This document shows positions 40,577-57,674 of a stretch of DNA of 64,000 bases, piece by piece. A model generated the notes under the pieces. The model searched no databases. It was not told where the DNA came from and saw only the letters and a list, made by a program, of their open reading frames with translations. The translations under genes and the position numbers were made by a program. The stretch's first letter is position 1; each line of letters begins with the position of its first letter. Source of the stretch: Pseudooceanicola pacificus (GTDB lineage: Bacteria > Pseudomonadota > Alphaproteobacteria > Rhodobacterales > Rhodobacteraceae); NCBI RefSeq assembly GCF_009789075.1, contig NZ_WNXQ01000006.1, positions 124,001 through 188,000 of the forward strand, read 5' to 3'.

Positions 40577-41893
40577 TCAGATATCCAGCGTATTGTCCTT
40601 TTCCCACTGCGAGAAATGCGCGGTATAGGCGTTCCACTCCTGCCGCTTGAGCTTGGCGTAAGAGGCCGAGAACCCGGCGCCCAGCATTGCGGTCAGCGTG
40701 CCGTCGGCCTCGAATGCGCGGATCGCATCCAGCAGGTTCAGGGGCAGGCGCTTGGCGTCCTTGACCGTGTGGCCCTCGGCATACATGTCGATGTCGTGGC
40801 GCGGGCCGGGATCGGCCTTGCCCTTCAGCCCCGACAGGCCCGCCGCGATGATCACGGCCTGCAGCAGATAGGGGTTGGCCGCGCCGTCGGGCAGGCGCAG
40901 CTCGAACCGGCCCGGCCCGGGGACACGGACCATGTGGGTGCGGTTGTTGCCGGTCCAGGTCAGCGTGTTGGGCGCCCAGGTGGCGCCCGAAATGGTGCGC
41001 GGGGCATTGATGCGCTTGTAGCTGTTCACCGTCGGATTGGTGATCGCGGGCAGGGCCTCGCCGTGCTGCATGATCCCGCCCAGGAAATGCGCGCCCTTTT
41101 CGGACAGCCCCACCTCGCCGGTCTGGCCCGTGCCCGCCCCGGCAAAGGCATTGGCCTGCCCCGCAATGTCCCAGACCGAGATATGGGCGTGGCAGCCATT
41201 GCCCGTCAGCCCCTCGACCGGCTTTGGCATGAAGGTCGCGCGCAACCCGTGGTTCTCGGCCACGGATTTCACCATGAACTTGAAGAAGCTGTGCCGGTCG
41301 GCGGTCACCAGGGCATCGTCGAAATCCCAGTTCATCTCGAACTGGCCGTTCGCGTCCTCGTGGTCGTTCTGATAGGGGTTCCAGCCGAGGCCGAGCATGT
41401 AATCGCAGACCTCGGCGATCACGTCGTAGCGGCGCATCACGGCCTGCTGGTCGTAACAGGGCTTTGCCGCGGTGTCGTGGACATCCGAAATCCGGTCCCC
41501 CTCGGGTGTCAGCAGGAAGAACTCGGCCTCGACCCCGGTCTTCACCCGCAGCCCTTCGGCGGCGGCGGCGTCGACCATGCGGCGCAGCACGTTGCGCGGG
41601 GCCTGTTCGATCTCTTCGCCCTCCATCACGCAGGTGGCGGGGACCCAGGCGACCTCGGGCTTCCACGGCAGCTGCACCACGGCGGCAGGGTCGGGCACGG
41701 CCAGCATGTCGGGATGGGCGGGCGTCATGTCCAGCCAGGTGGCAAAGCCCGCGAACCCGGCGCCGTCCTGCTCCATCCCGGCGATGGCCTGGGCGGGCAC
41801 CAGCTTGGCGCGCTGGCCGCCGAACAGGTCGGTGTAGGAAATCATGAAATACTTCACGCCGCGCTCGGCGGCGAATGTGGCGAGGTCGCTCAT
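40577..41893 (-). CDS. glnT: Glutamine synthetase family protein (GlnT / gamma-glutamylmethylamide synthetase type)
   Basis: The 438-residue ATP-dependent ligase has the glutamine synthetase core: EAEFFLLTPEGD (near 125), the metal/glutamate block NGQFEMNWDFDD (near 185) and the GNGCHAHISVWD loop (near 232). Length and sequence are those of the GlnT/GmaS group rather than GlnA (about 470 residues with an adenylylated Tyr loop). Known members make glutamine (rhizobial GlnT) or gamma-glutamylmethylamide from methylamine (GmaS). It follows the glxBCD/mgsABC-like genes, the arrangement seen in N-methylglutamate pathways, which supports but does not prove GmaS activity. Confidence 0.88.
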   Translation of the reverse strand: MSDLATFAAERGVKYFMISYTDLFGGQRAKLVPAQAIAGMEQDGAGFAGFATWLDMTPAHPDMLAVPDPAAVVQLPWKPEVAWVPATCVMEGEEIEQAPRNVLRRMVDAAAAEGLRVKTGVEAEFFLLTPEGDRISDVHDTAAKPCYDQQAVMRRYDVIAEVCDYMLGLGWNPYQNDHEDANGQFEMNWDFDDALVTADRHSFFKFMVKSVAENHGLRATFMPKPVEGLTGNGCHAHISVWDIAGQANAFAGAGTGQTGEVGLSEKGAHFLGGIMQHGEALPAITNPTVNSYKRINAPRTISGATWAPNTLTWTGNNRTHMVRVPGPGRFELRLPDGAANPYLLQAVIIAAGLSGLKGKADPGPRHDIDMYAEGHTVKDAKRLPLNLLDAIRAFEADGTLTAMLGAGFSASYAKLKRQEWNAYTAHFSQWEKDNTLDI

Positions 41894-41926
41894 CGTCTGG
41901 TCCTTCCGTCCCGGTGGTTGTCGGCT

Positions 41927-41948
41927 CGGGGGTCCCCCCGGGCCCCCG
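41927..41948 (-). promoter_or_regulatory. GC hairpin between glxD and glnT
   Basis: CGGGGGTCC (41927-41935) and GGGCCCCCG (41940-41948) form a 9-nt stem with one imperfect pair and a 4-nt loop in the 94-bp gap between glxD and glnT. It may reduce read-through or protect the upstream message. Confidence 0.4.
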
Positions 41949-41987
41949 CTGCTTGGATGTCGCGTCAGAGCGGGGGGCGGCGCATTC

Positions 41988-43313
41988 TCAGAACTGGGCC
42001 TTGCCGGGCCACCAGTCGGTGCCCGCCAGGGGCACCTGCGCCATGGCGGCGGCCTCCATCGTCAGCGCGCAGAGGTCTTCGGGTTCCAGGTTGTGCACGT
42101 GGCTCTTGCCGCAGGCGCGGGCGATGGTCTGGCATTCCAGCGTCATCACGTTCAGGAAATTGCGCAGCCGGCGGCCCGCGGCCTCGGGGTCCAGCCGCTT
42201 CATCAACTCGGGGTCCTGGGTGGTGATGCCGGCGGGGTCGCGCCCCTCGTGCCAGTCGTCATAGGCCCCGGCGGTGGTGCCCAGGGCGTTGTACTCGGCC
42301 TCGTAACGCGGGTCATTGTCGCCCAGGGCGATCAGCGCCGCCGTGCCGATGGACACCGCATCGGCGCCAAGCGCCAGCGCCTTGGCCATGTCAGCGCCCG
42401 AACGGATCCCGCCCGAGACGACAAGCTGCACCTCGCGGTGCATCCCGAGGTCCTGCAGCGCCTTCACCGCGGGGCGGATACAGGCCAGGGTCGGCTGGCC
42501 CACATGTTCGATAAAGACATCCTGCGTCGCCGCCGTGCCGCCCTGCATCCCGTCCAGCACCACGACATCGGCCCCGGCCTTGACCGCCAGCGCGGTGTCG
42601 TAATAGGGCCGCGCGCCGCCGATCTTGACGTAGATCGGCTTTTCCCAGCCGGTGATCTCGCGCAGTTCGAGGATCTTGATCTCCAGATCGTCGGGGCCGG
42701 TCCAGTCCGGGTGGCGGCAGGCGGACCGCTGGTCGATGCCCACGGGCAGGTCGCGCATGCCGGCGACCCGTTCGGTGATCTTCTGACCCAGCAGCATGCC
42801 CCCGCCGCCGGGTTTTGCGCCCTGGCCGACAACCACCTCGATCGCATCGGCGCGGCGCAGGTCGTCGGGGTTCATCCCGTAGCGCGAGGGCAGATATTGA
42901 TAGACCAGCTTTTCGGAATGCCCGCGCTCTTCCTCGGTCATGCCGCCATCGCCGGTGGTGGTCGAGGTCCCGGCCATCGTCGCGCCCCGGCCAAGCGCCT
43001 CCTTGGCGGGGCCCGAGAGCGAGCCGAAGGACATGCCCGCGATGGTCACGGGGATCTTCAGCTCGATGGGGTTCTTTGCGTAGCGCGTGCCAAGCGTGAC
43101 GCCCGTCTCGCATTTCTCGCGGTAGCCTTCGAGCGGATAGCGCGAGATCGAGGCGCCCAGGAACAGCAGGTCGTCGAAATGCGGCACCCGCCGCTTCGCC
43201 CCGCCGCCGCGAATGTCGTAGATGCCGGTGGCGGCGGCGCGGCGGATTTCCGCGTTCACCTCGCGCGAGAAGGTCCAGGACTGGCGCGGTTCGGTGGCTG
43301 GGGTCTTGTCCAT
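41988..43313 (-). CDS. glxD: FMN-binding glutamate synthase-domain protein (GlxD / MgsC type)
   Basis: The 441-residue protein corresponds to the central and FMN-binding region of the glutamate synthase large subunit: KIPVTIAGMSFGSLSGPAKEA (near 90, shown as the family block), YVKIGGARPYYD (near 225), ADVVVLDGMQGGTAAT (near 245) and LVVSGGIRSGADMAKALALGAD (near 290, abbreviated in function as the flavin-phosphate site). As GlxD or MgsC it works with GlxB and GlxC. The known N-methylglutamate synthase makes N-methylglutamate and 2-oxoglutarate-linked products from methylamine and glutamate. It shares TGATG with glxC. Confidence 0.88.
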   Translation of the reverse strand: MDKTPATEPRQSWTFSREVNAEIRRAAATGIYDIRGGGAKRRVPHFDDLLFLGASISRYPLEGYREKCETGVTLGTRYAKNPIELKIPVTIAGMSFGSLSGPAKEALGRGATMAGTSTTTGDGGMTEEERGHSEKLVYQYLPSRYGMNPDDLRRADAIEVVVGQGAKPGGGGMLLGQKITERVAGMRDLPVGIDQRSACRHPDWTGPDDLEIKILELREITGWEKPIYVKIGGARPYYDTALAVKAGADVVVLDGMQGGTAATQDVFIEHVGQPTLACIRPAVKALQDLGMHREVQLVVSGGIRSGADMAKALALGADAVSIGTAALIALGDNDPRYEAEYNALGTTAGAYDDWHEGRDPAGITTQDPELMKRLDPEAAGRRLRNFLNVMTLECQTIARACGKSHVHNLEPEDLCALTMEAAAMAQVPLAGTDWWPGKAQF

Positions 43314-43996
43314 CAATACTGGTCCGCGTTGTCGATGTTGAAATGATAAAGCTGGCGGGCCGAGCCGTAGCGCCGGAATTCCTCGGGGCGGGCATCGGCG
43401 CCCGCGCGCTTGAGCAGGTCGGCCAGCAGGGCGGTATGTTCGGGCCGCATCGCCTTTTCCACGCAGTCCGCGCCCAGGGATTTCACCGTCCCGCGCACGA
43501 AAAGCCGCGCCTCGTACAGGCTGTCGCCAAGCGCCTCGCCCGCATCGCCCAGCACCACCAGGTTGCCCTTTTGCGCCATGAAGGCCGACATATGCCCGAT
43601 GGAGCCATGCACCACGATGTCGATCCCCTTCATCGAGATGCCGCAGCGCGACGAGGCATTGCCCCGGATGTTCAGCAGCCCGCCATGCCCGGTCGCCCCG
43701 GCATACTGGCTGGCATCGCCATCCACGATCACCTCGCCCGACATCATGTTCTCGGCCACGCCGGGGCCGACGGAGCCTTGAACATGCACGGTGGCGGTCT
43801 TGTTCATGCCCGCGCAGTAATAGCCGGTCGAGCCCTTCACGGTGACCGAGACCGGCCCGTCCAGCCCGACCGCGATGGCATGGGCGCCGCGCGGGTTCTC
43901 GATCACATAGGCCTCGTTCGCCTGGCCCCTGGCGGCGGTATGCAGGGCGGCGTTCACGTCGCGCAATTCGGTTGTCAGCATGTCCAGAACGGGCAT
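43313..43996 (-). CDS. glxC: Glutamate synthase C-terminal-domain-like protein (GlxC / MgsB type)
   Basis: The 227-residue protein is built of the glycine-rich right-handed beta-helix seen at the C-terminus of glutamate synthase large subunits: VKGSTGYYCAGMNKTATVHV, then VGPGVAENMMSGEVIVDG and YAGATGHGGLLNIRG. In glutamate synthase this domain is structural and part of the subunit interface. Here it is a separate subunit between the amidotransferase-like GlxB gene (3-nt gap) and GlxD (TGATG overlap). Confidence 0.88.
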   Translation of the reverse strand: MPVLDMLTTELRDVNAALHTAARGQANEAYVIENPRGAHAIAVGLDGPVSVTVKGSTGYYCAGMNKTATVHVQGSVGPGVAENMMSGEVIVDGDASQYAGATGHGGLLNIRGNASSRCGISMKGIDIVVHGSIGHMSAFMAQKGNLVVLGDAGEALGDSLYEARLFVRGTVKSLGADCVEKAMRPEHTALLADLLKRAGADARPEEFRRYGSARQLYHFNIDNADQY

Positions 43997-43999
43997 GGC

Positions 44000-44884
44000 T
44001 CAGCGCTCCCAGAAATAGACGGTGGCGGGTTCGGGTTCCCAGACGCGCGCGGCCTCGATCCCGGGAAGGTTGGCGAAGGCGCGGTATTCGCTGCCAAAGG
44101 CCACGTAATCCCCGGTTTCGGCCATCACGGCGGGCTTGCAGGCAATCGGATCGCGCACCACGCCGAACCCGTCCCGCGTGCCGGTGACAAAGGTGAAGAA
44201 GCCGTCGAGGTCCTTCAGCGTGCCCTCCAGCGCCTCGCCCAGCGAAGCGCCCTCGGCGATGCGCGACGAGATATAGGCGGCGCCGACCTCGGTGTCGTTC
44301 TCGGTCCGGGTGTGGACACCCTTGCGCGCCAGGCGGCGGCGCATGTCGTTGTGGTTCGACAGAGAGCCGTTGTGCACCAGGCACTGGTCCGGCGCGGTCG
44401 AAAAGGGATGCGCCCCCATCGTCGTCACCGCGGATTCCGTGGCCATCCGGGTGTGCCCGATGCCGTGGCTGCCGCCCATGCCGCGAATGCCGAAGCGGTC
44501 GGCCACGTCGCGGGGCAGGCCGACCTCCTTGAAGATTTCCATGCTGGTGCCCGCGCTCATGATCCGGATGCCGCGCTGGTCCAGGAAAGCGGTTGCCGCC
44601 GCGCCGGCCTCGGCCGGGACGCTCAGCACGGCATGGGTGCTGATCCGGCGCATCGTCACGGGCGCGCCCAGATGCCCGGCCAGCGCCGCCTCCAGCCCGT
44701 CGAAATCCGCGTCGGTGTCGGACTGAACGGTGATCTTCAGATTGTCCGAGGAATCGCCATAGATCGCGATCCCGGCACTGTCGGGGCCACGGTCGGTCAT
44801 GGTGATGAGCATGTCGGTGAGCATGTCGCCCAAACGGGGCCGCAGCTCATCCTTCTTGAGAAACAGGCCTACAATGCCGCACAT
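44000..44884 (-). CDS. glxB: Class II glutamine amidotransferase-like subunit (GlxB / MgsA type)
   Basis: The 294-residue protein starts MCGIVGLF, giving the N-terminal nucleophile cysteine of class II amidotransferases after Met removal. It continues with TMTDRGPDSAGIAIYGD near 32 and CLVHNGSLSNHNDMR near 160, the glutamine- and ammonia-binding blocks. It is the first gene of the minus-strand glxBCD-glnT operon. It would release ammonia from glutamine or gamma-glutamylmethylamide for the GlxD partner. The upstream region has two inverted repeats. Confidence 0.9.
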   Translation of the reverse strand: MCGIVGLFLKKDELRPRLGDMLTDMLITMTDRGPDSAGIAIYGDSSDNLKITVQSDTDADFDGLEAALAGHLGAPVTMRRISTHAVLSVPAEAGAAATAFLDQRGIRIMSAGTSMEIFKEVGLPRDVADRFGIRGMGGSHGIGHTRMATESAVTTMGAHPFSTAPDQCLVHNGSLSNHNDMRRRLARKGVHTRTENDTEVGAAYISSRIAEGASLGEALEGTLKDLDGFFTFVTGTRDGFGVVRDPIACKPAVMAETGDYVAFGSEYRAFANLPGIEAARVWEPEPATVYFWER

Positions 44885-45081: not shown

Positions 45082-45321
45082 ATGCAGATCGCCATTGCCG
45101 AGGCCAAGGCCCAGTTCGCCGAGATCATTCGCCGCGTCGAAGCGGGAGAGGCGATAGAGCTGACGCGCTATGGCCGCCCGGTGGCCAAGATCGTGGCCGC
45201 CGACCGCCCGGTCGGGCGCCCGCTGATCGGCGCGATGGCCGGGGCGTTCACGCTGCCTGCGGATATCTTTGCCGGCGACGACGAGATCGCCGAAATGTTC
45301 GACCGCGCGGCCGGGGACTGA
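45082..45321 (+). CDS. Phd/YefM-family antitoxin
   Basis: The 79-residue protein has the Phd/YefM DNA-binding N-terminal fold: MQIAIAEAKAQFAEIIRRVEAGEAIELTRYGRPVAKI, cut here into its recognisable parts EAKAQF, VEAGE and RYGRPVA. An acidic C-terminal tail (PADIFAGDDEIAEMF) should wrap the toxin. Its stop is directly followed by the toxin start (TGAATG). It would neutralise the PIN-domain toxin and repress the pair's promoter. Confidence 0.93.
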   Translation: MQIAIAEAKAQFAEIIRRVEAGEAIELTRYGRPVAKIVAADRPVGRPLIGAMAGAFTLPADIFAGDDEIAEMFDRAAGD

Positions 45322-45690
45322 ATGCGCCTGCTGCTGGACACCCATGTCCTGCTCTGGGCGCTGCTGGACGATCCCCGGTTGTCGGCGGACCAGCGCGCGG
45401 CCATCGGCGGGGGAGAGCTCTATATCTCGGCCGCCAGCGTGTGGGAGATCGGGATCAAGCGGGCCATCGGCAAGCTCGACGTGCCCGAAGAGCTGTTCGA
45501 TATCGCGGTGGATGCCGGATGCCGCCCGCTGCCGATCTCGTGGACCCATGCCGAGGCCGCCGCGGCCCTGCCCCTGCATCACGCGGATCCGTTCGATCGG
45601 ATGCTGGTTGCCCAGGCCCGATGCGAGGGGCTGCGCCTGGCCAGTTCGGACGCCAAGCTGGCGGCCTATGACGTCGATCTCGTCGGCTGA
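45322..45690 (+). CDS. PIN-domain ribonuclease toxin
   Basis: The 122-residue VapC-like toxin has the four acidic residues that bind Mg in PIN nucleases: Asp6 (LLLDTHVLLW), Glu42 (SVWEIGIK), Asp92 (HADPFDRML) and Asp110 (ASSDAKL). The THVLLWALLDDPRLS start is typical of the PIN group paired with Phd-type antitoxins. It would cleave RNA, commonly tRNA or mRNA, when the antitoxin is degraded. All active-site residues are intact, so the pair should be functional. Confidence 0.93.
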   Translation: MRLLLDTHVLLWALLDDPRLSADQRAAIGGGELYISAASVWEIGIKRAIGKLDVPEELFDIAVDAGCRPLPISWTHAEAAAALPLHHADPFDRMLVAQARCEGLRLASSDAKLAAYDVDLVG

Positions 45691-45782: not shown

Positions 45783-47291
45783 ATGACCTTCACGCCGCAT
45801 GGAAAACACCTGATCGCCGGGGACTGGACGATGGGGGCGGATACCTTCACCTCCACTCCGCTGCACGGGCCGGGCTTTGCCGTGTCGCGCGGAACGGCCG
45901 GTGACGTGGACCGGGCCGTGCAGGCCGCCGAAGAGGCCTTCTGGACTTATGGCTATTCCTCTCGTGAGGACAGGGCGGCCTTCCTCGACGCCATCGCCGA
46001 CGAGATCGAGGCGCGCGCCGCGGACATCACCGCCATCGGCACCGCCGAAAGCGGCCTGCCCGAGGCGCGCCTGCAGGGCGAGCGGGGGCGGACCACCGGG
46101 CAGCTGCGCCTTTTCGCGACGCATATCCGCAGCGAGGCGTACCTCGACATCCGCCACGATCCCGCCTTGCCCGACCGCCAGCCGCTGCCGCGCCCGGACC
46201 TGAAGATGATGCAGCGCCCCATCGGCCCGGTGGCCGTCTTTGGCGCGTCGAACTTCCCGCTCGCCTTTTCGACCGCCGGGGGCGACACCGCCGCCGCGCT
46301 CGCCGCCGGATGCCCGGTGGTGGTCAAGGGCCACCCGGCCCATCCCGGCACAGGCGAAATCGTGGCCGAGGCGATCCATGCCGCCATTGCCCGCTGTGGC
46401 ATGCATCCCGGTGTCTTCTCGCTGATCCAGGGCGATCAGGTGGATTATGCCCAGGCCCTGGTCCAGCACCCTCTGATCCGCGCGGTCGGCTTCACCGGCT
46501 CTCTGGGCGCCGGGCGCGCGCTCTTCGACCTCTGTGCGCAGCGGCCCGAGCCGATCCCCTTTTTCGGAGAGCTGGGTTCCGTCAACCCGATGTTCATCCT
46601 GCCCGCCGCCGCCGCCGCGCGCGGGGCCGAGATCGGCGCCGGATGGGCCGGGTCGCTGACCATGGGGGCGGGGCAGTTCTGCACCAACCCAGGCATCGCC
46701 GTGATCCCCGAGGGGCCCGAGGGCGACGCCGTGGTGGCCGCCGCCGCCGAGGCGCTGGCGAAAGTCGCCCCGCAGCCGATGCTGACCGATGGGATCGCCG
46801 CCGCCTACCGGCGCGGCAAGGCGCGGTTCGACACCCGCAACGCCGTCCGCCCGGTCCTGACAACGGCGGACGAGGGGCGGCAGGCCTCCCCCAATCTTTA
46901 CCAGACCGACATGGCCAGCTACCTGAATGACCATGTGCTGGGCGAAGAGGTCTTTGGCCCGCTCGGCCTGGCCATCCGGGTTTCGGAACCTTCGCAGATG
47001 ATCGAACTTGCCAAGGGCTTCGAAGGGCAGCTGACCGCCACGCTGCAGATGGACGAGGCCGACACGGCCCTGGCCCGGCAACTGCTGCCGGTGCTGGAGC
47101 GCAAGGCGGGGCGCATCCTGGTGAACGGCTATCCGACCGGGGTCGAGGTCGCCGACAGCATGGTCCACGGCGGGCCTTACCCGGCCTCGACCAATTTCGG
47201 CGCCACCTCTGTCGGCACGCTGGCGATCCGCCGGTTCCTGCGCCCGGTCTGTTATCAGAATTTCCCGGATGCGCTTGCCGTCACCGGCTGA
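45783..47291 (+). CDS. Aldehyde dehydrogenase (2,5-dioxovalerate/ketoglutarate semialdehyde type)
   Basis: The 502-residue NAD(P)-dependent enzyme has the catalytic Glu263 (FFGELGSVNP) and nucleophile Cys300 (GAGQFCTNPG). The sequence pattern is that of 2,5-dioxopentanoate dehydrogenases, which end sugar-acid and hydroxyproline routes by making 2-oxoglutarate. The C-terminal NGYPTGVEVADSMVHGGPYP block fits this group. The start MTFTPHGKH at 45783 is preceded by GAGGAG; an earlier in-frame ATG at 45711 gives a tail without homology. It stands alone, convergent with the flavoprotein gene. Confidence 0.88.
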   Translation: MTFTPHGKHLIAGDWTMGADTFTSTPLHGPGFAVSRGTAGDVDRAVQAAEEAFWTYGYSSREDRAAFLDAIADEIEARAADITAIGTAESGLPEARLQGERGRTTGQLRLFATHIRSEAYLDIRHDPALPDRQPLPRPDLKMMQRPIGPVAVFGASNFPLAFSTAGGDTAAALAAGCPVVVKGHPAHPGTGEIVAEAIHAAIARCGMHPGVFSLIQGDQVDYAQALVQHPLIRAVGFTGSLGAGRALFDLCAQRPEPIPFFGELGSVNPMFILPAAAAARGAEIGAGWAGSLTMGAGQFCTNPGIAVIPEGPEGDAVVAAAAEALAKVAPQPMLTDGIAAAYRRGKARFDTRNAVRPVLTTADEGRQASPNLYQTDMASYLNDHVLGEEVFGPLGLAIRVSEPSQMIELAKGFEGQLTATLQMDEADTALARQLLPVLERKAGRILVNGYPTGVEVADSMVHGGPYPASTNFGATSVGTLAIRRFLRPVCYQNFPDALAVTG

Positions 47292-49122: not shown

Positions 49123-49464
49123 TCAGGCGGGTTCGAGGAATTCGACCGGCGTGGCCCAGTGGATCAGCACCACGCAGCCGTCCTCCGACCAGACGGAATG
49201 TTCGCTCCCGGGGGGGTTCATCACCAGGCTGCCGACGGTGTAATGGCCGTTTTCGTCGCTCTGGCTGCCCTCCAGCACCAGCACGCATTCCAGCCCGGAA
49301 TGGCGGTGCCGGGGCGCGCGGGCGCCGGGGGCATAGCGCAGCAGCGCAACCTGCGGATGGCCCGCCTGAAGGGTGCAGATCTCGATCCCGTCGCGGAACC
49401 GGGTGAATTCCATCTGCTGCCAGCCGCCAGCGGCCAGCCCGTGAAAGGCTGTCGCATCAGGCAT
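49123..49464 (-). CDS. Small cupin-domain protein, last gene of the cyanurate-type operon
   Basis: The 113-residue single-domain cupin has the metal-binding strand motif [24 protein letters not shown] (His, His and Glu in HRHSGLE) and a second motif [14 protein letters not shown]. It resembles ChrR-type cupins. It overlaps the second hydrolase gene by 8 nt, so it belongs to the operon. Its role is unknown. A metal-dependent enzyme acting on a ureido compound or a sensor are both possible. Confidence 0.8.
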
Positions 49465-50128
49465 CTATCGGCGCCACCGCTGCAAGGATGGTGGCCACCG
49501 GCGCGGTCCAGCCGACAATGGCGCCCTGGGCGCGGATCATTTCGATCGCGGCGGTCTTGAAGGCGGGGAAATAACTTTCCGTGGCATCCTCGGCCAGCAG
49601 GCAGTCGAACCCGCGGTCGTTGGCCTCGCGCATGGTGGTCTGCACGCAGACCTCGGTGGTGACGCCCGCAAAGATCAGCGTGCGGATGCCCAGACCGGCC
49701 AGATGCGTGCCCAGATCGGTGGCGTAAAAGGCGCCCTTGCCGGGCTTGTCGATCACCTTTTCGCCCGGCACAGGGGCCAGTTCGGGCAGGATCTCGGCCC
49801 CCGGTTCGCCCGCGATCAGCACGCGGCCCATCGGACCGGCATCCCCGATGCGCAGGCTCGGCGACCCGCGCAGCCGCTTGGCGGGCGGGCAGTCCGACAG
49901 GTCGGGCCGGTGGCATTCGCGGGTGTGGATCACCGGGATCCCGGCGGCGCGGCATCCGGCGATCAGCCGCGCGGTGGCGGGCACGATGGCCTGCAACAGC
50001 GTCACGTCATTGCCCAGGGTCGCGCCAAAGCCCCCCGGTTCGATGAAGTCGCGCTGCATGTCGATGACGATCAGCGCAGTGGTCGCCGGGTCCCATTCCA
50101 GCGCAAAGGGCAGGGCGTCGATCTTCAT
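49457..50128 (-). CDS. Isochorismatase-fold cysteine hydrolase (second hydrolase of the operon)
   Basis: The 223-residue amidohydrolase has the family triad Asp23 (IVIDMQRDF), Lys128 (IDKPGKGAF) and Cys161 ([15 protein letters not shown]). It is clearly paralogous to the biuret-hydrolase-like protein at 52747, sharing HTRE, DLSD, GEPG, DKPGKG, ATDL and [11 protein letters not shown], but it lacks the N-terminal 14-residue tail and has RAQGAIVGW where the other has MQGGVFG. A distinct ureido substrate is therefore likely. Triuret, carboxybiuret or ureidoacrylate are candidates. It overlaps the ATPase gene by ATGA. Confidence 0.85.
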
Positions 50129-51660
50129 GCGTGGCCTCCCATGTGATGGCCGATGGTGGGAATATCGGCCTCGGCCGCGGTGCATTCGTAGACCAGCCGC
50201 CCCTCGGACATCACCATCACGCGGTCGGCCAGTTCCAGGATTTCGTCCAGGTCCTCGCTCATCAGCAGAACCGCGGTGCCCTGGTTGCGCGCCGACATGA
50301 TACGCGAGCGGATCTCGGCCACGGCGGTGAAATCCAGCCCGAAACACGGGTTCGAGATGATCAGGATGTCGACCTCTCCGTCCAGTTCCCGCGAGAGCAC
50401 GGCGCGCTGCACATTGCCGCCCGAGAGCGCGGCGATGGGGCTGTCGAGCGAGGCGGTCTTGACCTTGTAATCCGTCACCAGCCGCGCGGCGCGGCGTTTC
50501 ATCTCGCCCGGGGCCAGCCAGAAGCGGGTGCCCCCGACATCCACGTCGAAGGAGCGGAAGCCGATGTTTTCGCTCACCGTCATGCGGGGGGCGCAGGCGT
50601 TCTGCAGCGGCTCTTCGGGCAGGTAGCGCACCTTGTGGCGGCGCGCCTCGGCCCGGGTCGCGCCATAGGGGGCGCCCTTGACCGCGATGGTGCCGGCGCT
50701 GACCGGGCGCTGGCCGGTGAGGATCTCCATCAGTTCCATCTGCCCGTTGCCCGAGATCCCGGCGATGCCCACGATCTCGCCCGCGCGGATGGTCAGCCCG
50801 TCGATGGCGATCTCCTTCAGCCCCGAGCGGTCGCGGGCGCGCACGCCCTCCAGCGCCAGCACGGTCTCGCCCGTCGTCACCTCGCGCGCGGCGGGGGCGG
50901 CGGGCTTGGCGTCACCCATCATCATCGCGGCCATGTCCTGATGGCTGAGATCGGCCACCATGCCACCGCCCACGCGGCGGCCCCGGCGCAGCACCGTCAC
51001 CTCGTCGGCAAAGGCGGTCACCTCGCGGAACTTGTGGCTGATCATCAGCACCGACAGCTCCCCCGCCTCGCAGAGCTTGCGGACATGGCCCAGCACCTCG
51101 TCCGCCTCGTCCGGGGTCAGGACCGAGGTCGGCTCGTCCAGGATCAGGAACCGGCGGCCAAGGTAGAGCTGTTTCAGGATCTCCAGCTTCTGCTTCTCGC
51201 CCGCCGCCAGGCGGTGCACCGGTTCGCTCAGCGGGACGCGGAAGGGCATCGCCGCCATGAAGGCCTGCAGGCCCGTCATCTCATGCTCCCAGTTCACGAC
51301 GGCGGGAACATCGGCGCGGCTGATCACCAGATTCTCGGCCGCGGTGAGGGCGGGGACCAGGGTGAAATGCTGATAGACCATGCCCAGCCCCTTGGCATGG
51401 GCGTCGCGGGGATCGGTGACATTGCCGTCGAACCCGTCGATCAGCAGGCTGCCCGCGCTCGCGTGGTAAAAGCCCATGATGCATTTCACCAGCGTCGACT
51501 TGCCGGCCCCGTTCTCGCCCAGCAGGGCGTGGAACGACCCGGGCCGCACCTTGATCGAGACATCGTCGAGCGCGGTGAAACTGCCAAAGCGCATGGTCAT
51601 GCCGACGGTTTCGATACCGACGGCGGGGAGCGGGGACTGAATGGGCTGGGCTGCGTGCAT
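50125..51660 (-). CDS. ABC ATPase of BMP/nucleoside-type importer
   Basis: The 511-residue dual ATPase is of the sugar/nucleoside (RbsA/NupA-like) type. The first domain has Walker [16 protein letters not shown] (near 47), signature [13 protein letters not shown] and Walker [12 protein letters not shown]. The second domain is degenerate at Walker A ([15 protein letters not shown]) as is normal, has signature [15 protein letters not shown], and an unusual Walker B region [12 protein letters not shown] without the DEP/QPT sequence. It lies after the cyanuric-acid-amidohydrolase-like gene, separated from its permease partners by two catabolic genes. A GAGGA ribosome site lies within the upstream gene's end. 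Confidence 0.9.
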
Positions 51661-51667
51661 GGGATCC

Positions 51668-52747
51668 TCAGCTGCGGCGGGCGATGAGTGCGACGGGGCC
51701 GCCGCCATCGGGGCCCTGGTGTTCCGCCCCGCCCGAAACGAACAGGTCGGTGAACCCGACAAGCGACGCCAGCGCCCCGCCGACAAAGGCGCGGGCATGG
51801 CGGGTGTGCGATATGTCGGAATCCGACAGCATGACATGACGCGCGCCCCGGACCCGGCCCGAGGCGGCGGCCTCGGCCTTGGCCATCACGGCAAGCAGCC
51901 GGGCGCGCTGCGCGGGGGCCAGCTGCCCCGGCGCGTCCAGCCCCAGGCGGGCGAGGGCGGCGCGGACGGGTTCGGTATCAATGCTGTCGGACATCACCGC
52001 ATGGTCGATCAGCAGGGGGCCGGACCAGCTGTCGGACAGGCCCATCACGACGATCTCGTGATCCTCCAGCTCGACCCCGGCCGAGGCCCCGCAGCGGGTA
52101 CAATAGAGCGCGGGATCGCCGGGTTCGGCATCGCCGGGCACCTCGCCCAGAGCGATCGCCGCCCCAAGGGCCGAGGCGCCACGCGACAGGGCCATGCTCT
52201 TCAGCGTGTCGCGGGTGGCCGTGGCGGCGCCGCGCGCATCCGCCTGGGCGATCCGTTCGGGGGTCAGCAGGGGGCATTTCACCTGCACGTAATGCACCGC
52301 GTCGGGGCCGGTGATCCCGGCATCGGCCATCGCGGCGGCCACGCCCCGGGCGACCTCGGCCGACTGGGCAGGGGTTCCGATCTCTTCGGGCAGCAGGGCC
52401 CTTGTGCGCGCCCGCCCGATGGCCAGCGCCGGGCTTTCGCCACCGCCGGGCGCGGGATCCGAGGTAAAGACCAGCCAGTGCGGCGACAGCGCGCCCTCGG
52501 TTCCGCCGGACATGACCAGGGCGACCCGGTCGACCTCGGCCAGCGGCAGATGACGGGACAGCAGGGCGCGCAGGGCGCTGACGGCAAAGGCGCGGGTGAA
52601 GTCGTTGACGCAGCCGTTGCCCTCGGTCTTGCCAAAGATCGCGACGATGGAGCCGGGCGCCAGCCGCCCGGCCTCGATCAGCGCGGCAATCGCGCTCACG
52701 TCATCGGGCGCCTGCGCCTCCAGCCGATGGACTCCGGCACATCGCAT
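51668..52747 (-). CDS. atzD: Ring-opening amidohydrolase (cyanuric acid amidohydrolase/barbiturase family)
   Basis: The 359-residue protein belongs to the small AtzD/TrzD/barbiturase family, which hydrolyses cyanuric acid to carboxybiuret or barbiturate to ureidomalonate. The fold has three repeats, each with a Lys-Ser pair: Lys40 (FGKTEGNG) with Ser80 (VMSGGTEG), Lys157 (QVKCPLLTP) with Ser222 (CGASAGVE), and Lys290 with Ser338 (VSGGAEHQGPDGGG). These match in order and spacing the pairs known for AtzD. The biuret-hydrolase-like gene immediately upstream (TGATG overlap) favours cyanurate over barbiturate. The start at 52747 gives family length. Confidence 0.88.
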   Translation of the reverse strand: MRCAGVHRLEAQAPDDVSAIAALIEAGRLAPGSIVAIFGKTEGNGCVNDFTRAFAVSALRALLSRHLPLAEVDRVALVMSGGTEGALSPHWLVFTSDPAPGGGESPALAIGRARTRALLPEEIGTPAQSAEVARGVAAAMADAGITGPDAVHYVQVKCPLLTPERIAQADARGAATATRDTLKSMALSRGASALGAAIALGEVPGDAEPGDPALYCTRCGASAGVELEDHEIVVMGLSDSWSGPLLIDHAVMSDSIDTEPVRAALARLGLDAPGQLAPAQRARLLAVMAKAEAAASGRVRGARHVMLSDSDISHTRHARAFVGGALASLVGFTDLFVSGGAEHQGPDGGGPVALIARRS

Positions 52748-53451
52748 CACGGCAGCACGGCCAGCAGATCGGCCGAACTGGCGGTCGCGCCAAAGACGCC
52801 GCCCTGCATGTGGATCATGTGGATCGCCGCCGCGTGGTTCGCCGGATCCGTCGCCGCGCAGCAATCCGTCAGCATCACGCATTCAAAGCCGCGGTCGTTG
52901 GCCTCGCGCATGGTGGTGTGCACACAGACATCGGTGGTGATGCCGGTCAGCACGATATTGTCGATTCCCTTCAGCCGCAGGATCATTTCCAGATCGGTGG
53001 CGCAGAAACATCCCTTGCCCGGCTTGTCGATGATCACCTCGCCCTCCAGCGGGGCCAGTTCGTCGATGATCTCCCAGCCCGGTTCGCCGCGGGTCAGGAT
53101 CCGCCCGCAGGGGCCGGGATCGCCGATACCCGCCCCGATCCGGCGCGAGCGCCAGCGCTTGTTCGCGGGCAGATCCGACAGGTCGGCGCGGTGCCCCTCG
53201 CGGGTGTGGATCACCATGTAGCCCTTGGCGCGGAAGGCCGACAGCAGCGCCTGGATCGGCGCGATCGGCGCGCGGGTCAGCGAGATGTCATAGCCCATCG
53301 AGTCGACATAGCCGCCGGGCCCGCAGAAATCGGTCTGCATGTCGATGATGATCAGCGCCGTGTTCCCGGGCCGCAGGTCGCCGTTCCACGGCCAGGCATA
53401 GGGGGTCGAGGCGATGGTGGTGCCCGTGGGTGTCTCGGTCATGGCGTTCAT
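52747..53451 (-). CDS. biuH: Biuret hydrolase (isochorismatase fold)
   Basis: The 234-residue cysteine hydrolase has Asp37 ([15 protein letters not shown]), Lys143 (DKPGKGCF), Cys176 (TTDVCVHTT) and Gln216 (MQGGVFG). With an offset of one these coincide with Asp36, Lys142, Cys175 and Gln215 of the characterised Rhizobium leguminosarum BiuH, and the long N-terminal tail is also shared. The reaction is biuret to allophanate and ammonia. In known pathways biuret arises by decarboxylation of the carboxybiuret made by AtzD-type enzymes, whose gene overlaps this one. It starts 15 nt after the permease stop. Confidence 0.87.
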
Positions 53452-53465
53452 CGGTCAGGCTCCGG

Positions 53466-54389
53466 TCATTTGGTGATGGAGAGTTCGCGCGGGGCGCCGG
53501 TCAATGCGCCGCTTTTCGAGGAGGATGCGATCAGCACCACCAGTGTCAGCACGAAGGGCGCGGCGTAGAAGAGGTAATAGCCCGAGGTGACGCCAACCGA
53601 TTGCAAGGCCGGGCCAAGCGCCCCGGCGGCGCCAAAAAGAAGGGCGGCAAAGAAGCAGTTGACCGGCGACCAGCGGGCAAAGATCACCAGCGCCACCGCG
53701 ATCAGGCCCTGGCCGGAGGAGATCCCTTCGTTCCACGAGCCGGGGTAGAACAGCGACAGATAGGCCCCGCCCATGCCCGCCAGCGCCCCTCCAAATCCGG
53801 TGGCGAGGATGCGCACCCGCGCCGGGCGGATGCCAAGCGCGCGCGCGGCGTCGGAACTGTCGCCCACCACGCGCAGGGTCAGCCCGATACGGGTCCGTTT
53901 CAGCATCCAGGCCAGGGCCACGGCCAGCAGGCCGCCGATAATGAACAGCACATTGACCCTGAGCGCGGCCTGCACCTGCGGCAGGTCGGACCACCAGCCC
54001 AGATTGATCGCGGGCAGGTCAGGGGCCACCGGCTGGATGAAGGCCTTGCCGAAGAAGAAGGCGAGCCCGGTGCCAAGCAGCATCAGCGCGATGCCGATGG
54101 CAATGTCGTTGACCCGGGGCAGCGAACAGAGCAGCCCGTGCAGCAGGCCGAATGCGGCCCCCGCGCCGGCGGCGGCCAGCACCCCGATCCAGGGTGAGCC
54201 CGTCATATAGGCCAGCGCATAGCCCGCCATCGCCCCAAAGACGAGCGTGCCCTCAAGCCCCAGGTTTATCCGGCCGGAGCGTTCGGTGATCACCTCGCCC
54301 AGCGAGACGAACAGGAACGGGGTCGACACGCGGATCGCGCCGCCGACCATTGCGAGCGGCACCGCCCAGAGACCGATATCGCCGCTCAT
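53466..54389 (-). CDS. ABC permease 2 of BMP/nucleoside-type importer
   Basis: The 307-residue membrane protein is of the NupQ/YufQ-like branched-chain/BMP permease type, with about eight hydrophobic segments and the early family motif LGEVITERSGRINLGLEGTLV (marked by ERSGRINLGLEG, near residue 35). The coupling region GLTLRVVGDSSDAARALGI near 170 fits. The start at 54389 overlaps the first permease gene by ATGA. It forms a heterodimer with that protein. The hydrolase gene for biuret follows after 15 nt, so uptake and catabolism are co-transcribed. Confidence 0.9.
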   Translation of the reverse strand: MSGDIGLWAVPLAMVGGAIRVSTPFLFVSLGEVITERSGRINLGLEGTLVFGAMAGYALAYMTGSPWIGVLAAAGAGAAFGLLHGLLCSLPRVNDIAIGIALMLLGTGLAFFFGKAFIQPVAPDLPAINLGWWSDLPQVQAALRVNVLFIIGGLLAVALAWMLKRTRIGLTLRVVGDSSDAARALGIRPARVRILATGFGGALAGMGGAYLSLFYPGSWNEGISSGQGLIAVALVIFARWSPVNCFFAALLFGAAGALGPALQSVGVTSGYYLFYAAPFVLTLVVLIASSSKSGALTGAPRELSITK

Positions 54390-55495
54390 GCCGTGTCCTT
54401 TCTGTTCAGCCAGGCGGTCAGGCTGATCCGCCCGGTCAGGGTCTCGCTCGCCAGGATCGACACGAAGACAAAGCCCTGCAGTACGGTCATCGTGGCGTCG
54501 GGCAGATCCATCCGGCGCTGGACAAGACCCGAAGAGGCCTCGAACCCGGCGAGCAGCAGGGCGACGGGGATGATCGCCAGCGGATTGTGCCGGGCGAGGA
54601 AGGCGACAAGGATGCCGGTATAGCCATAGCCCGAGGCGAGCGAGGCATTGGCCGACCCGTGCACCGCCGAGACCTCGAAATATCCGGCCAGCCCGGCGAA
54701 GGCCCCGCCAAGCGCGGTGAAGCCGACCACCAGCCGGGTCACCGGCAGCCCCTGCACCTGCGCCGCGCGGACATTGCCGCCCGCGATCCGGGCGCCAAAC
54801 CCGGTGGTGGTGCGTTCGATCAGCACCCAGCACAGGATGCAGCAGACCACCGCCACGGCCAGCCCCCAGTGCACGTTCCAGCCGGGCAGGTCGCCGACGC
54901 GCAGCGACTCGGCCAGCGGCGCGGTCGAGGGTTTGTTGAGCGAGGCGGGATCGCGCAGCGGCCCCTCCACCAGGTGGTTCATCAGGGCGATGGCGATATA
55001 GGCCAGCAGCAGCGAGGCGATGGTTTCGTTGACCCCGCGCCACTGGCGCAGCGCCCCGACGGCACCGATCCAGATCGCGCCGACCAGCGCGGCCATCAGC
55101 GCCAGCAGCGGCATGGCGAGGATGGCGGGCCAGCCTGCCAGGAGCATGGCCAGGCCGCCCGCCATCACGCCGCCCAGCACAATGGCTCCTTCGCCGCCGA
55201 TGACGACGAGGCCAAGGCGCGCCGGAACGGCGACGCAGAGAGCCGAGAACAGCAGCGGTGCTGCCCGCGACAGGGTGTTGTTCCAGGAGAAGGCGGTTCC
55301 GAACCCGGCCTTGTATACAAGTGCGTAGAAGGTAGCCGGGTTCTTGCCAAGCAGCAACAGAAACACGGCAAAGACCGCAAAGCCGGCCAGCAGCGCCAGA
55401 ACCGGCAGCAGCAGCCCCTCGGCCCGGCCCGCGATGCCCGTCAGCCAGGCCCGCAGGGGCGTGGCCGGGGCCGGGATATCCGCCCCGACCGCCAT
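54386..55495 (-). CDS. ABC permease 1 of BMP/nucleoside-type importer
   Basis: The 369-residue membrane protein resembles YufP/NupP-type permeases: a long cytoplasmic leader with WLTGIAGRAEG, a first helix, then NTLSRAAPLLFSALCVAV, LGLVVIGGEGAIVLGG and the coupling loop RIAGGNVRAAQVQGLPV near residue 255. The start MAVGADIP at 55495 lies 1 nt after the binding-protein stop, so there is no intercistronic hairpin in this operon. Residues upstream of this Met in the same frame lie in the binding-protein gene and were discarded. Confidence 0.9.
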   Translation of the reverse strand: MAVGADIPAPATPLRAWLTGIAGRAEGLLLPVLALLAGFAVFAVFLLLLGKNPATFYALVYKAGFGTAFSWNNTLSRAAPLLFSALCVAVPARLGLVVIGGEGAIVLGGVMAGGLAMLLAGWPAILAMPLLALMAALVGAIWIGAVGALRQWRGVNETIASLLLAYIAIALMNHLVEGPLRDPASLNKPSTAPLAESLRVGDLPGWNVHWGLAVAVVCCILCWVLIERTTTGFGARIAGGNVRAAQVQGLPVTRLVVGFTALGGAFAGLAGYFEVSAVHGSANASLASGYGYTGILVAFLARHNPLAIIPVALLLAGFEASSGLVQRRMDLPDATMTVLQGFVFVSILASETLTGRISLTAWLNRKDTA

Positions 55496-55496
55496 G

Positions 55497-56612
55497 TTAC
55501 GAGGTCGACCCGATGACGCCCTCGACGAGGTAGCCCATCGATTCCAGCGCCACGTCGGATTCCTCGAAGGCCTGGCCCTCGGTCGCGACGACATTGCCGG
55601 CGTTGTCCTTCATCGGACCGTTGATCACGGCGAACCCGCCCGACATGATCCTGGCCTTGGTGTCCTCGAACTGCGCGCGCGCCGCGTCGGACACGGCCGG
55701 GCCCAGCGGGGACATCTTGATGAAGCCCTCGGCCAGCCCGCCGCGTACGAAATTGTCGATCGGCTCGCCCGCCATCGTCTTCTTCACCATGTCGGTATAG
55801 ACCGTGGCCCAGTTCCATTCCGCGCCGGTCAGGTATTTCTCGGGCGCCAGTACGGACTGGTTGGCGTGATAGCCGCAGATGAAGCAGTCGCGCGCGGCGG
55901 CGGTTTCCATCACCACCTTGGGCCCGTCCACATGGCAGGTGATCACATCGGCACCGGCATCGGCCAGGGCGTTGGTGGCCTCGGCCTCCTTCACCGCCAT
56001 CGACCATTCGCCGGTAAAGATCACCTGGCATTCGATGGTCGGATCGACCGAGCGCGCGCCCAGCAGGAAGGAATTGATGTTCAGCAGCACCTGCGGGATC
56101 GGCTTGGCGGCGACAAAGCCGATCTTTTTCGACTTGGTCGCATGCCCGGCGGCGATGCCGTTCAGGTACTGGCCCATGCCGATATAGCCGAAATAGCTGC
56201 CCACATTGGCGGGCATCCCCGCGGACCACAGCCCGCCGCAATGTTCGAACCGGACATCGGGATTGTTGGGCGCGACCTTCAGGATATGCGGGTCGAAATA
56301 GCCGAAGGAGGTGGGGAAGAGCAGGGTGGCGCCGTCGAAATTGATCATCGACTCCATTGTCTGCTGCACGTCCTGCGTCTCGGCCACGTTCTCCTCTTCG
56401 ATGACCGTGACGCCCTCCATCGCCTTGACGACCGCGGCCCCCTCGGCATGCGCCTGGTTGTAGCCGTAGTCGTCGCGCGGGCCGACGTAGATGAACCCCA
56501 CGGTCAGCTCGCCCGAGGCGCGGGCCGGGCGGCCCAGACCGCCCAGCGTGGCGGCCCCGGCAAGCCCGGCGGTGGTGGACAGGAAACGGCGGCGCGTCAG
56601 GAAACTGGTCAT
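55497..56612 (-). CDS. BMP-family (PnrA-like) substrate-binding protein with Tat-type signal
   Basis: The 371-residue binding protein begins MTSFLTRRRFLSTTAGLAG, a twin-arginine signal (TRRRFL), and then ASGELTVGFIYVGPRDDYGYNQAHAEG, the opening of BMP/PnrA (purine nucleoside) binding proteins. Other family blocks are TSFGYFDPHILKVAPNNPDVRFEHCGG and GFVAAKPIPQVLLNINSF. BMP proteins bind nucleosides, nucleobase-like compounds or other heterocycles, which suits cyanurate or barbiturate. It is the first gene of the eight-gene operon. Tat export suggests the protein folds before export. Confidence 0.9.
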   Translation of the reverse strand: MTSFLTRRRFLSTTAGLAGAATLGGLGRPARASGELTVGFIYVGPRDDYGYNQAHAEGAAVVKAMEGVTVIEEENVAETQDVQQTMESMINFDGATLLFPTSFGYFDPHILKVAPNNPDVRFEHCGGLWSAGMPANVGSYFGYIGMGQYLNGIAAGHATKSKKIGFVAAKPIPQVLLNINSFLLGARSVDPTIECQVIFTGEWSMAVKEAEATNALADAGADVITCHVDGPKVVMETAAARDCFICGYHANQSVLAPEKYLTGAEWNWATVYTDMVKKTMAGEPIDNFVRGGLAEGFIKMSPLGPAVSDAARAQFEDTKARIMSGGFAVINGPMKDNAGNVVATEGQAFEESDVALESMGYLVEGVIGSTS

Positions 56613-56693: not shown

Positions 56694-56712
56694 TGCTGCT
56701 AAGTTGGCAGCA
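56694..56712. promoter_or_regulatory. LysR-type operator between divergent LysR gene and operon
   Basis: TGCTGC (56694-56699) and GCAGCA (56707-56712) are perfect arms around TAAGTTG. The core fits the LysR T-N11-A rule (T56697 to A56709) with TGC/GCA symmetry. It is 82 nt before the binding-protein start and 36 nt before the LysR start, so it could control both directions. Confidence 0.7.
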
Positions 56713-56747
56713 TTGCGGTGCGTTTTTTGCAGCAGTCAGGGAAAGCC

Positions 56748-57674
56748 ATGAAACAGCTCGAAACGCTGGAGTTCATCGAGGCCATTGCCCGCGCCGGGTC
56801 GATCCGGGGCGCGGCGGATTCGCTGTCGCTGACCTCGACCGCGCTGAACCGCCGCCTGCTGGCGCTGGAGGAGGAGCTGGGCGCCCCCGTCTTCGAACGC
56901 CTGCCGCGGGGCGTGCGCCTGTCGCCGGCGGGAGAGCTGCTGATCCACCACATCCGCCAGCAGCGCGCCGACCTGGACCGCGTCCGCTCGCAGATCGCCG
57001 ATCTGAAGGGCGAGCGGCGGGGCCATGTGAAGGTCGCCTGCAGCCAGGCCCTGCTGCCCTATTTCATGCCGCACGAGATCAACGCCTACCGGGCCGAGCA
57101 CCCCAAGGTGACCTTTGAGGTCAACCTGCGCGACCGCTACCGCGCGGAACAGGCGCTGGTGACCCATGCCGCCGATATCGCCCTGGTGTTCGAACCGGTC
57201 CGGCTGGCGGATGTGCAGGTGCTGGCCACCGCGCCGCAGCCGGTGCATGTGGTCATGGTGCGCGACCATCCCCTGGCCGCCAAGCCGGTGCTGCGCCTGT
57301 CGGATCTGGTGGGATATCCGATCGGGATGCCCAGCGAGGAATTTGGCGTGCGCTACCTGCTGGATCTGGCGATGCGGCGCTCGGCGATCCGGATCACCCC
57401 TCAGATCGTGTCGGACAGTTTCGAATTCCTGCGCAGCTATCCGGGGCCCGAGCTGATGCTGACCTTTCAGATCCCCATCGGCCTGCCGGCCCAGGACAGC
57501 GGGCCGGAGGCCTTTGTGTCGCGCCCCGTGGACACGCGGGACGTGCCGGCGGGGCTGCTCTACCTGGCGCAGATGCGGGGGCGGACCCTGCCGGTGGCCG
57601 CCGCGAATTTTGCCCGCCAGCTGGCCCGCGCGCTGGATGCCGCATCCGACGGGCCGGTGCGGCCGGGCCCCTGA
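56748..57674 (+). CDS. LysR-family regulator of the cyanurate-type operon
   Basis: The 308-residue protein has a LysR winged helix (FIEAIARAGSIRGAADSLSL at residues 8-27) and an effector domain (about 90-295). It is divergent from the importer/hydrolase operon and separated from it by 135 bp, with a LysR-type palindrome in between. AtzR, the known activator of atzDEF, is also a LysR protein encoded next to the operon. The start MKQLETLEF has CAGGGAA upstream; an in-frame GTG at 56718 adds ten residues without homology. Confidence 0.9.
   Translation: MKQLETLEFIEAIARAGSIRGAADSLSLTSTALNRRLLALEEELGAPVFERLPRGVRLSPAGELLIHHIRQQRADLDRVRSQIADLKGERRGHVKVACSQALLPYFMPHEINAYRAEHPKVTFEVNLRDRYRAEQALVTHAADIALVFEPVRLADVQVLATAPQPVHVVMVRDHPLAAKPVLRLSDLVGYPIGMPSEEFGVRYLLDLAMRRSAIRITPQIVSDSFEFLRSYPGPELMLTFQIPIGLPAQDSGPEAFVSRPVDTRDVPAGLLYLAQMRGRTLPVAAANFARQLARALDAASDGPVRPGP

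Follow-up and report, generated by a model that had tools for sequence, protein, structure and literature searches.

A probable ureide nitrogen-scavenging operon in Pseudooceanicola pacificus and its cupin as a candidate carboxybiuret decarboxylase

The genome of Pseudooceanicola pacificus (assembly GCF_009789075.1) contains, on contig NZ_WNXQ01000006.1, an operon of eight genes in which an ATP-binding cassette (ABC) importer of the BMP type is combined with hydrolases for triuret, biuret, and cyanuric acid. The operon lies at 49123-56612 of the stretch of 64,000 nucleotides analyzed here (positions 124,001 to 188,000 of the contig, hereafter the window). We hold it probable that this is a ureide nitrogen-scavenging operon, with putative assignments for the ligand of the importer, the activity of the cupin, and the regulation. 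Its core consists of the BMP importer, BiuH, TrtA, and the cupin, to which AtzD is an add-on. The kind of operon is not new, as it is already known from nodule bacteria.

In the proposed pathway, the importer would take up triuret- or biuret-like compounds and perhaps cyanuric acid. TrtA would convert triuret, and AtzD cyanuric acid, to 1-carboxybiuret, whose decarboxylation to biuret may be accelerated by the cupin. BiuH would deaminate biuret to allophanate, which might be finished by an AtzF missed in the incomplete assembly or decay to urea, for which a urease is present.

Gene content and layout

The gene families were assigned with NCBIfam and Pfam models, which gave the following features:

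55497-56612, minus strand: BMP/PnrA-like periplasmic binding protein, relative of AtzT (PF02608, 130 bits)
54386-55495, minus strand: ABC permease 1 (PF02653; NF047929 173 bits, under the cut-off of 400)
53466-54389, minus strand: ABC permease 2 (PF02653; NF047928 147 bits, under the cut-off of 465)
52747-53451, minus strand: BiuH, predicted biuret amidohydrolase (NF050097 427 bits, cut-off 370)
51668-52747, minus strand: AtzD, predicted cyanuric acid amidohydrolase (NF052395 515 bits, cut-off 360)
50125-51660, minus strand: double-domain importer ABC ATPase (PF00005 in two stretches; NF047930 385 bits, under the cut-off of 670)
49457-50128, minus strand: TrtA-like predicted triuret hydrolase (6xix 306 bits; BiuH model 255 bits, under the cut-off of 370)
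49123-49464, minus strand: single-domain metal-type cupin (PF12973, 66 bits)
56748-57674, plus strand: divergent LysR-type regulator (PF00126 and PF03466; likely start ATG 56748)
56694-56712, no strand: perfect inverted repeat TGCTGC-N7-GCAGCA, candidate LysR site in the LysR-BMP intergenic region

All eight operon genes are encoded on the minus strand, and neighbors overlap or lie no more than 14 nt apart. The binding protein and permease 1 genes are 1 nt apart (a longer listed reading frame of permease 1 begins at ATG 55594, within the BMP gene), the two permease genes overlap by 4 nt, and a gap of 14 nt precedes biuH. Further downstream, biuH and atzD overlap by 1 nt, atzD and the ATPase gene are 7 nt apart, and the overlaps of the ATPase with the TrtA-like gene and of the latter with the cupin gene amount to 4 and 8 nt. 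An earlier sequence-only reading of the window had described one strand, this gene order, and tight spacing, as well as the union of a BMP-type importer with BiuH and AtzD in a single operon, and both descriptions are borne out by the coordinates and by the NCBIfam and Pfam matches, respectively; the divergent LysR gene, which belongs to the locus, was absent from it. The importer is of the BMP type by its PF02608 binding protein, two PF02653 permeases, and double-domain PF00005 ATPase. Because the order recurs across many genomes, it is not due to chance, and the gene overlaps make a joint production of the uptake and ring-cleavage proteins plausible. Since a BMP-type importer, BiuH, and AtzD share one operon, a role in scavenging nitrogen from ureides or cyanurate is indicated.

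Identity of the hydrolases

The enzyme identities were predicted by sequence and residue matches to characterized enzymes. The protein encoded at 49457-50128, for which the sequence-only reading had correctly named the isochorismatase fold but missed the identity, is triuret hydrolase-like, its activity being predicted. The triuret hydrolase TrtA (6xix) is its best solved relative with 306 bits versus 220 bits for BiuH (6xjm). Six positions separate TrtA from the BiuH consensus (PMC7948467), and the window protein carries the TrtA residue at all of them (F34, N40, A133, E159, Y186, and I204, the window number being that of the publication minus 1). In the Herbaspirillum numbering, F35, N41, A134, E160, Y187, and I205 are thus present together with D24, K129, C162, and Q202. 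In related operons, the TrtA (n = 68) and BiuH (n = 71) proteins are each invariant at five of these six positions, the A134 position varying in both groups. Given a triuret hydrolase-like second hydrolase, carboxybiuret would have two sources, TrtA and AtzD. TrtA-like proteins of 56-64% identity also occur without importer, BiuH, and cupin in the stretch viewed (L201, L203, L205, L206, L208, L209, L215, and L216); their substrate may be different.

BiuH matches the structure of Rhizobium BiuH (6azo) with 396 bits. It has five of the six BiuH discriminants (Y48, Y54, D174, T201, and V219), with Cys148 in place of the consensus Ser, and the catalytic residues D37, K143, and C176 are present along with Q216, the equivalent of Q215.

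For the protein that had been labeled AtzD/barbiturase-like, the first half of the label stands. Its solved relative 4nq3 scores 391 bits and barbiturase 5hwe 250 bits. Cyanuric acid hydrolase employs the catalytic residues Ser226, Lys156, and Glu230 together with Arg52, Arg188, and Arg314 (Azorhizobium numbering; PMC4051656). By alignment with the solved relatives, the window protein has three Ser-Lys dyads (S80/K40, S222/K157 with E226, and S338/K290) and the arginines R52, R189, and R319. A barbiturase identity is ruled out by Arg189, as the barbiturase subgroup has Gln at position 188, and by the weaker match.

AtzD as an add-on to a conserved core

Related loci were collected by a search with ten aligned AtzD proteins against genome contigs, from which the 80 best loci among the matches listed were taken. 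A further 51 stretches picked by BMP, TrtA, or AtzD matches were added, one of which duplicates an earlier locus. The operon genes were scored with profiles built from the sampled loci, with thresholds of 450 for AtzE and 650 for AtzF. The ATPase is paired with BiuH in 71 operons, 68 of which also contain TrtA (window included), and three more ATPase loci have no BiuH (L062, which ends at the stretch edge, L188, and L189).

AtzD is found inside 37 of the 68 TrtA-bearing operons, the window included, and occupies a junction that is present without AtzD in many operons. In the 29 operons retrieved through BMP or TrtA matches, it is inside none and near three. In the window's own family, 18 of 197 other genomes carry the BMP protein at an identity of at least 74%, and 16 of these 18 stretches have an analyzable operon (L174 and L182 end at the stretch edge); BiuH and TrtA are present in all 16, with AtzD inside none and near one. 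The sister operons L170 and L171 are likewise without AtzD. The window's AtzD clusters with that of a Methylobacterium (L064, support 96), which has no such operon beside it. The presence of AtzD inside the operon requires eight changes on the operon tree and seven on the AtzD tree, three of the latter being forced by starred branches. Either AtzD has repeatedly entered this junction, or it was exchanged or lost, as the trees fit gain or loss alike. Two observations speak against this account. Of the 37 operons with AtzD inside, 36 came from the AtzD search and the remaining one is the window, which biases the with-AtzD counts. Moreover, a named Rhodobacteraceae metagenome-assembled genome, L095, which the tree places among the family rows, does have AtzD within its operon, so that the zero of the family sample is no strict rule.

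A formamidase gene is near 45 of the 71 operons, usually between permease 2 and BiuH (the one at L113:8257-9273 scores 587 bits to NF009803, cut-off 406), and is not in the window. We know of no formamide step in a triuret, biuret, or cyanurate pathway. Taken together, many alphaproteobacteria appear to inherit uptake and triuret/biuret hydrolysis as a single unit, the cyanurate hydrolase being suggested as an add-on that was acquired or exchanged on several occasions.

Importer and ligand

The binding protein has a twin-arginine-type leader (RRRFLS, spotted by eye), and its closest match in the Protein Data Bank is AtzT (6pi5, 199 bits). The guanine pocket of the AtzT of pADP-1 is formed by Tyr45, Ser97, Phe98, Glu165, Trp194, Asn218, and Asn220 (PMC6834077). 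Tyr45, Ser97, Phe98, Asn169, and Trp194 are retained in the window protein, and Glu165 is replaced by Gln, Asn218 by His, Asn220 by Asp, and Thr139 by Gln. Measured against an AtzT-like purine/triazine pocket (Tyr45, Ser97, Phe98, Glu165, Asn169, Trp194, Asn218, and Asn220), the window protein thus departs at 165, 218, and 220. Over ten pocket positions, the exact code of the window is found in 56 of 67 operon BMP proteins, of which 31 have AtzD inside the operon or close by and 25 do not, and one further protein deviates at a single position. The remaining ten, every one of them with AtzD and fetched by the AtzD search, form a second pocket class that has Trp45, His139, and either Ser or Thr at 165. 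The hydrolase-free BMP importers of L188 and L189 are near this second class, with Leu and Phe at 165. In the window's own genome, a second BMP importer (L210, C12:163000-182900) with an adjoining isochorismatase-fold gene (35% identity to BiuH) has a different pocket code.

Because operons with and without AtzD share the pocket code, cyanurate is not the defining ligand of the importer; and since TrtA and BiuH are constant and the main pocket class is unaffected by AtzD, triuret or biuret would be the likelier ligand. The sequence-only reading had proposed an importer for cyanurate, biuret, or a similar nitrogen source, of which the scavenging of ureide or cyanurate nitrogen is retained and cyanurate as the defining ligand is not. 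A pure cyanurate importer is weakened by the AtzD-independent pocket. The operon might still serve mainly to import and degrade cyanuric acid, BiuH and TrtA being helpers, as would agree with the 37 operons that have AtzD inside, with the second pocket class seen only with AtzD (its ten members all being AtzD-search-fetched), and with the BMP importer divergent from atzD in pADP-1. The search bias, the absence of AtzD inside the 29 BMP- or TrtA-retrieved operons, and the AtzD-independent main pocket class argue against such a role, and to our knowledge TrtA has no part in cyanurate degradation, which also counts against it; we consider it quite improbable.

A second alternative is that the importer takes up a purine or another heterocycle (guanine, adenine, or a urate-like compound) and that the substrates of the hydrolases are breakdown products arising within the cell or outside it. 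What weighs here against triuret or biuret as the ligand is that AtzT, the nearest solved BMP protein, prefers guanine (KD ~110 nM), with adenine modeled in the other near relative, 3s99 (PMC6834077). Five of the AtzT pocket residues are retained, and uric acid oxidation can yield triuret (PMC7948467). The replacement of Glu165, Asn218, Asn220, and Thr139 by Gln, His, Asp, and Gln in the 56 operon proteins of the main class, however, makes a purine-like ligand unlikely, albeit credible.

The cupin and its possible exchange with AtzH-like proteins

Among the 68 TrtA operons, 51 have the cupin, 15 an AtzH-like gene (counted within 10 kb of the operon or up to the locus end), none both, and two neither. 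AtzE over the threshold is near none of the 51 cupin operons. A quick tree of joined BiuH, ATPase, and TrtA shows three independent, reciprocal switches between cupin and AtzH-like gene, one of them within a fully supported clade of three rows, in which the window and L171 have the cupin and L170 has the AtzH-like gene. In a sample of 398 genomes of the phylum, a cupin profile (at most 12 first-look candidates scored per genome) found eight orthologues of at least 155 bits, the next match scoring 76 bits. All eight, the window's included, adjoin trtA by coordinates and belong to the window's class, Alphaproteobacteria, from which most of the named AtzD-search loci with this operon also come. 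In the same sample, 40 other genomes have TrtA matches, and in the 24 whose TrtA neighborhoods were viewed, TrtA lies in an importer operon in 12 (seven with the cupin and five with an AtzH-like gene) and elsewhere in 12.

AtzH is reported to act on the 1,3-dicarboxyurea made by AtzEG, in a pocket rich in arginine (PMC6219798). In the 15 AtzH-like proteins, Arg66 (a numbering shifted by 3, as deduced from Tyr22 of the paper being Tyr19 of the plasmid annotation) is kept in all nine with AtzE; the six without AtzE over the threshold have Gln (three), Leu (one), or Cys (two). These six (L063, L065, L170, L194, L198, and L199) represent about four lineages. The row with Leu, L194, has an AtzE-family match of 366, below the threshold of 450, on the opposite strand some 7 kb past TrtA; that of the window (351, at 17782-19080) is about 30 kb off and is a general amidase by NCBIfam. 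A tree of the AtzH-like rows requires four changes of AtzE context with weak support (the AtzH of pADP-1 was entered twice, once mislabeled). A class-wide sample of 385 genomes has HpxZ/AtzH matches in 51 of them, and the 30 best-scoring fetched loci all keep Arg66, AtzE being present in the fetched flank of 20 and absent from that of ten; Arg66 loss may also occur elsewhere, among weaker-scoring matches. As carboxybiuret has one carboxylate fewer, the loss of one arginine fits, and the Arg66-less proteins might be carboxybiuret rather than dicarboxyurea decarboxylases. If so, the cupin would fill an equivalent slot.

The cupin may thus be an unrecognized carboxybiuret decarboxylase, unrelated to the AtzH/TrtB fold and swapped one-for-one with AtzH-like proteins, and hence the missing enzyme from triuret or cyanurate to biuret in alphaproteobacteria, Rhizobium 3841 included. 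The basis of this prediction is genomic association only, and we rate its chances at slightly less than even. The residues H53, H55, E59, and H89 are invariant in all 51 cupins and, going by cupin motifs, are putative metal ligands. The structure was predicted with a pLDDT (predicted local distance difference test score) of 95, and a fold search with an E limit of 0.001 yielded 319 matches; the 50 viewed range from dioxygenases, KdgF, and a polyketide cyclase to anti-sigma factors and proteins of unknown function, which does not discriminate a function. Several points tell against the assignment. Fold and metal ligands are compatible with many activities, the closest solved relatives are the cupin domains of ChrR anti-sigma factors, L044 and L053 have neither cupin nor AtzH-like gene although both have AtzE, and the three switches do not suffice as proof of exclusion (sign test p 0.25).

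With ChrR cupin domains as top matches in both sequence and fold, the protein could be a sensor or regulator like the ChrR domain rather than an enzyme. Its 113 residues form a lone cupin domain with all four putative metal ligands kept, though, and it alternates with the AtzH-like protein, whose family has a reported catabolic role (PMC6219798), so that a regulatory function seems unlikely. Somewhat less doubtful, yet still on the unlikely side, is an enzyme-free decarboxylation with the cupin acting on another intermediate. The unaided half-life of carboxybiuret is ~20 min (PMC7948467), and the pathway of strain 3841 was reported with a solvent-mediated step (PMC6219798). This is countered by the trade-off of the cupin, among the families compared, with the AtzH-like and AtzE genes and by the lack of one with AtzF. 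AtzF is over the threshold near 33 of the 51 cupin operons and not near 18, the AtzF counts being lower bounds since the threshold of 650 omits some weaker or edge-cut matches (e.g., L098, L187, and L202), and the cupin is therefore no simple substitute for allophanate hydrolase.

The novelty of the cupin lead depends on TrtB, which we infer to be AtzH-like; if trtB denoted this cupin family, the lead would not be new. This is disfavored, as no cupin orthologue was found outside the window's class in the 398 genomes, all five operons viewed outside the class have AtzH-like genes, and the abstract of PMC12625717 says atzH where its text says trtB. The word 'cupin' is absent from the main texts of PMC12625717 and PMC9800807, and a literature search, whose coverage did not extend to the original trtB description, found no paper joining 'carboxybiuret decarboxylase' with 'cupin'. 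Should the cupin be a carboxybiuret decarboxylase, a rhizobial step described as solvent-mediated would become enzymatic, and a second protein fold would be known for this decarboxylation. With the Arg66 pattern, a single residue would also suffice to separate AtzH of the dicarboxyurea type from proteins of the carboxybiuret type.

End of the pathway and regulation

For the last step of the proposed pathway, the assembly has no match over the cut-off to the allophanate hydrolase AtzF and none to PF02682, which, at a completeness of 67%, may speak against the pathway. Sub-cut-off AtzF matches are general amidases, since a control also matches below the cut-off in 13 of 14 genomes. An AtzH-like protein likewise has no match in this assembly. 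Urease alpha is present, and AtzF lies within 10 kb of 13 of the 16 family operons.

The divergent LysR protein, which is 81% and 87% identical to those beside the sister operons L170 and L171, probably controls the operon. The repeat block at 56694-56712 is partly conserved in five aligned intergenic regions, and an extra GTGC...GCAGCA half site lies beside it (56694-56734). A sigma-54 promoter as in the pADP-1 operons was rejected, with eight matches in the window versus 11.3 by chance and none in the intergenic region. Neither sigma-70 promoters (none, shuffles 0.7) nor terminators (five, shuffles 3.4, sd 2.0) are in excess, and no tRNA near the operon was found within the window.

Neighboring genes

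At 40577-44884, the window has a type III glutamate-ammonia ligase gene (654 bits) with glutamate-synthase-like and glutamine-amidotransferase-like genes, a set which presumably resembles the N-methylglutamate pathway. At 45082-45690, adjoining a gene at 45783-47291, a PIN-domain gene comes after a small gene of the Phd/YefM antitoxin type; the two are likely a toxin-antitoxin pair.

Comparison with known systems

The closest known system is found on plasmid pRL10 of Rhizobium johnstonii (leguminosarum bv. viciae) 3841, where RL_RS29145-RS29185 contain the eight genes of the window on one strand and in identical order (BMP-permease-permease-formamidase-BiuH-AtzD-ATPase-TrtA-cupin). It differs by the formamidase between permease 2 and biuH and by a divergent GntR gene; in the window, a formamidase is missing and the divergent gene encodes a LysR protein. 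The BiuH of strain 3841 is a characterized enzyme (PMC5806882).

Like the window, the atzRSTUVW/atzDGEHF genes of Pseudomonas sp. ADP plasmid pADP-1 bring together a BMP-type importer, a LysR regulator, and atzD (PMC6834077). There, however, the importer is divergent from atzD and has the order BMP-ATPase-permease-permease, AtzG, AtzE, HpxZ (AtzH), and AtzF follow downstream, and no BiuH, TrtA, or cupin is annotated in the stretch viewed. The clusters of ammonia oxidizers (bmpA-nupABC with biuH, trtA, trtB, and atzF) share the link of BMP importer, biuH, and trtA; they differ in that trtB is reported and that the authors found no atzD (PMC12625717). The links of the importer to biuH/trtA (PMC12625717) and to atzD (PMC6834077) have thus already been published. 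The TrtA of Herbaspirillum sp. BH-1 (6xix) has all catalytic and all six discriminating residues in common with the window protein. AtzH/HpxZ (DUF3225, NTF2-like), to which the cupin has no homology, would hold in other operons the role taken here by the cupin, with an unrelated fold.

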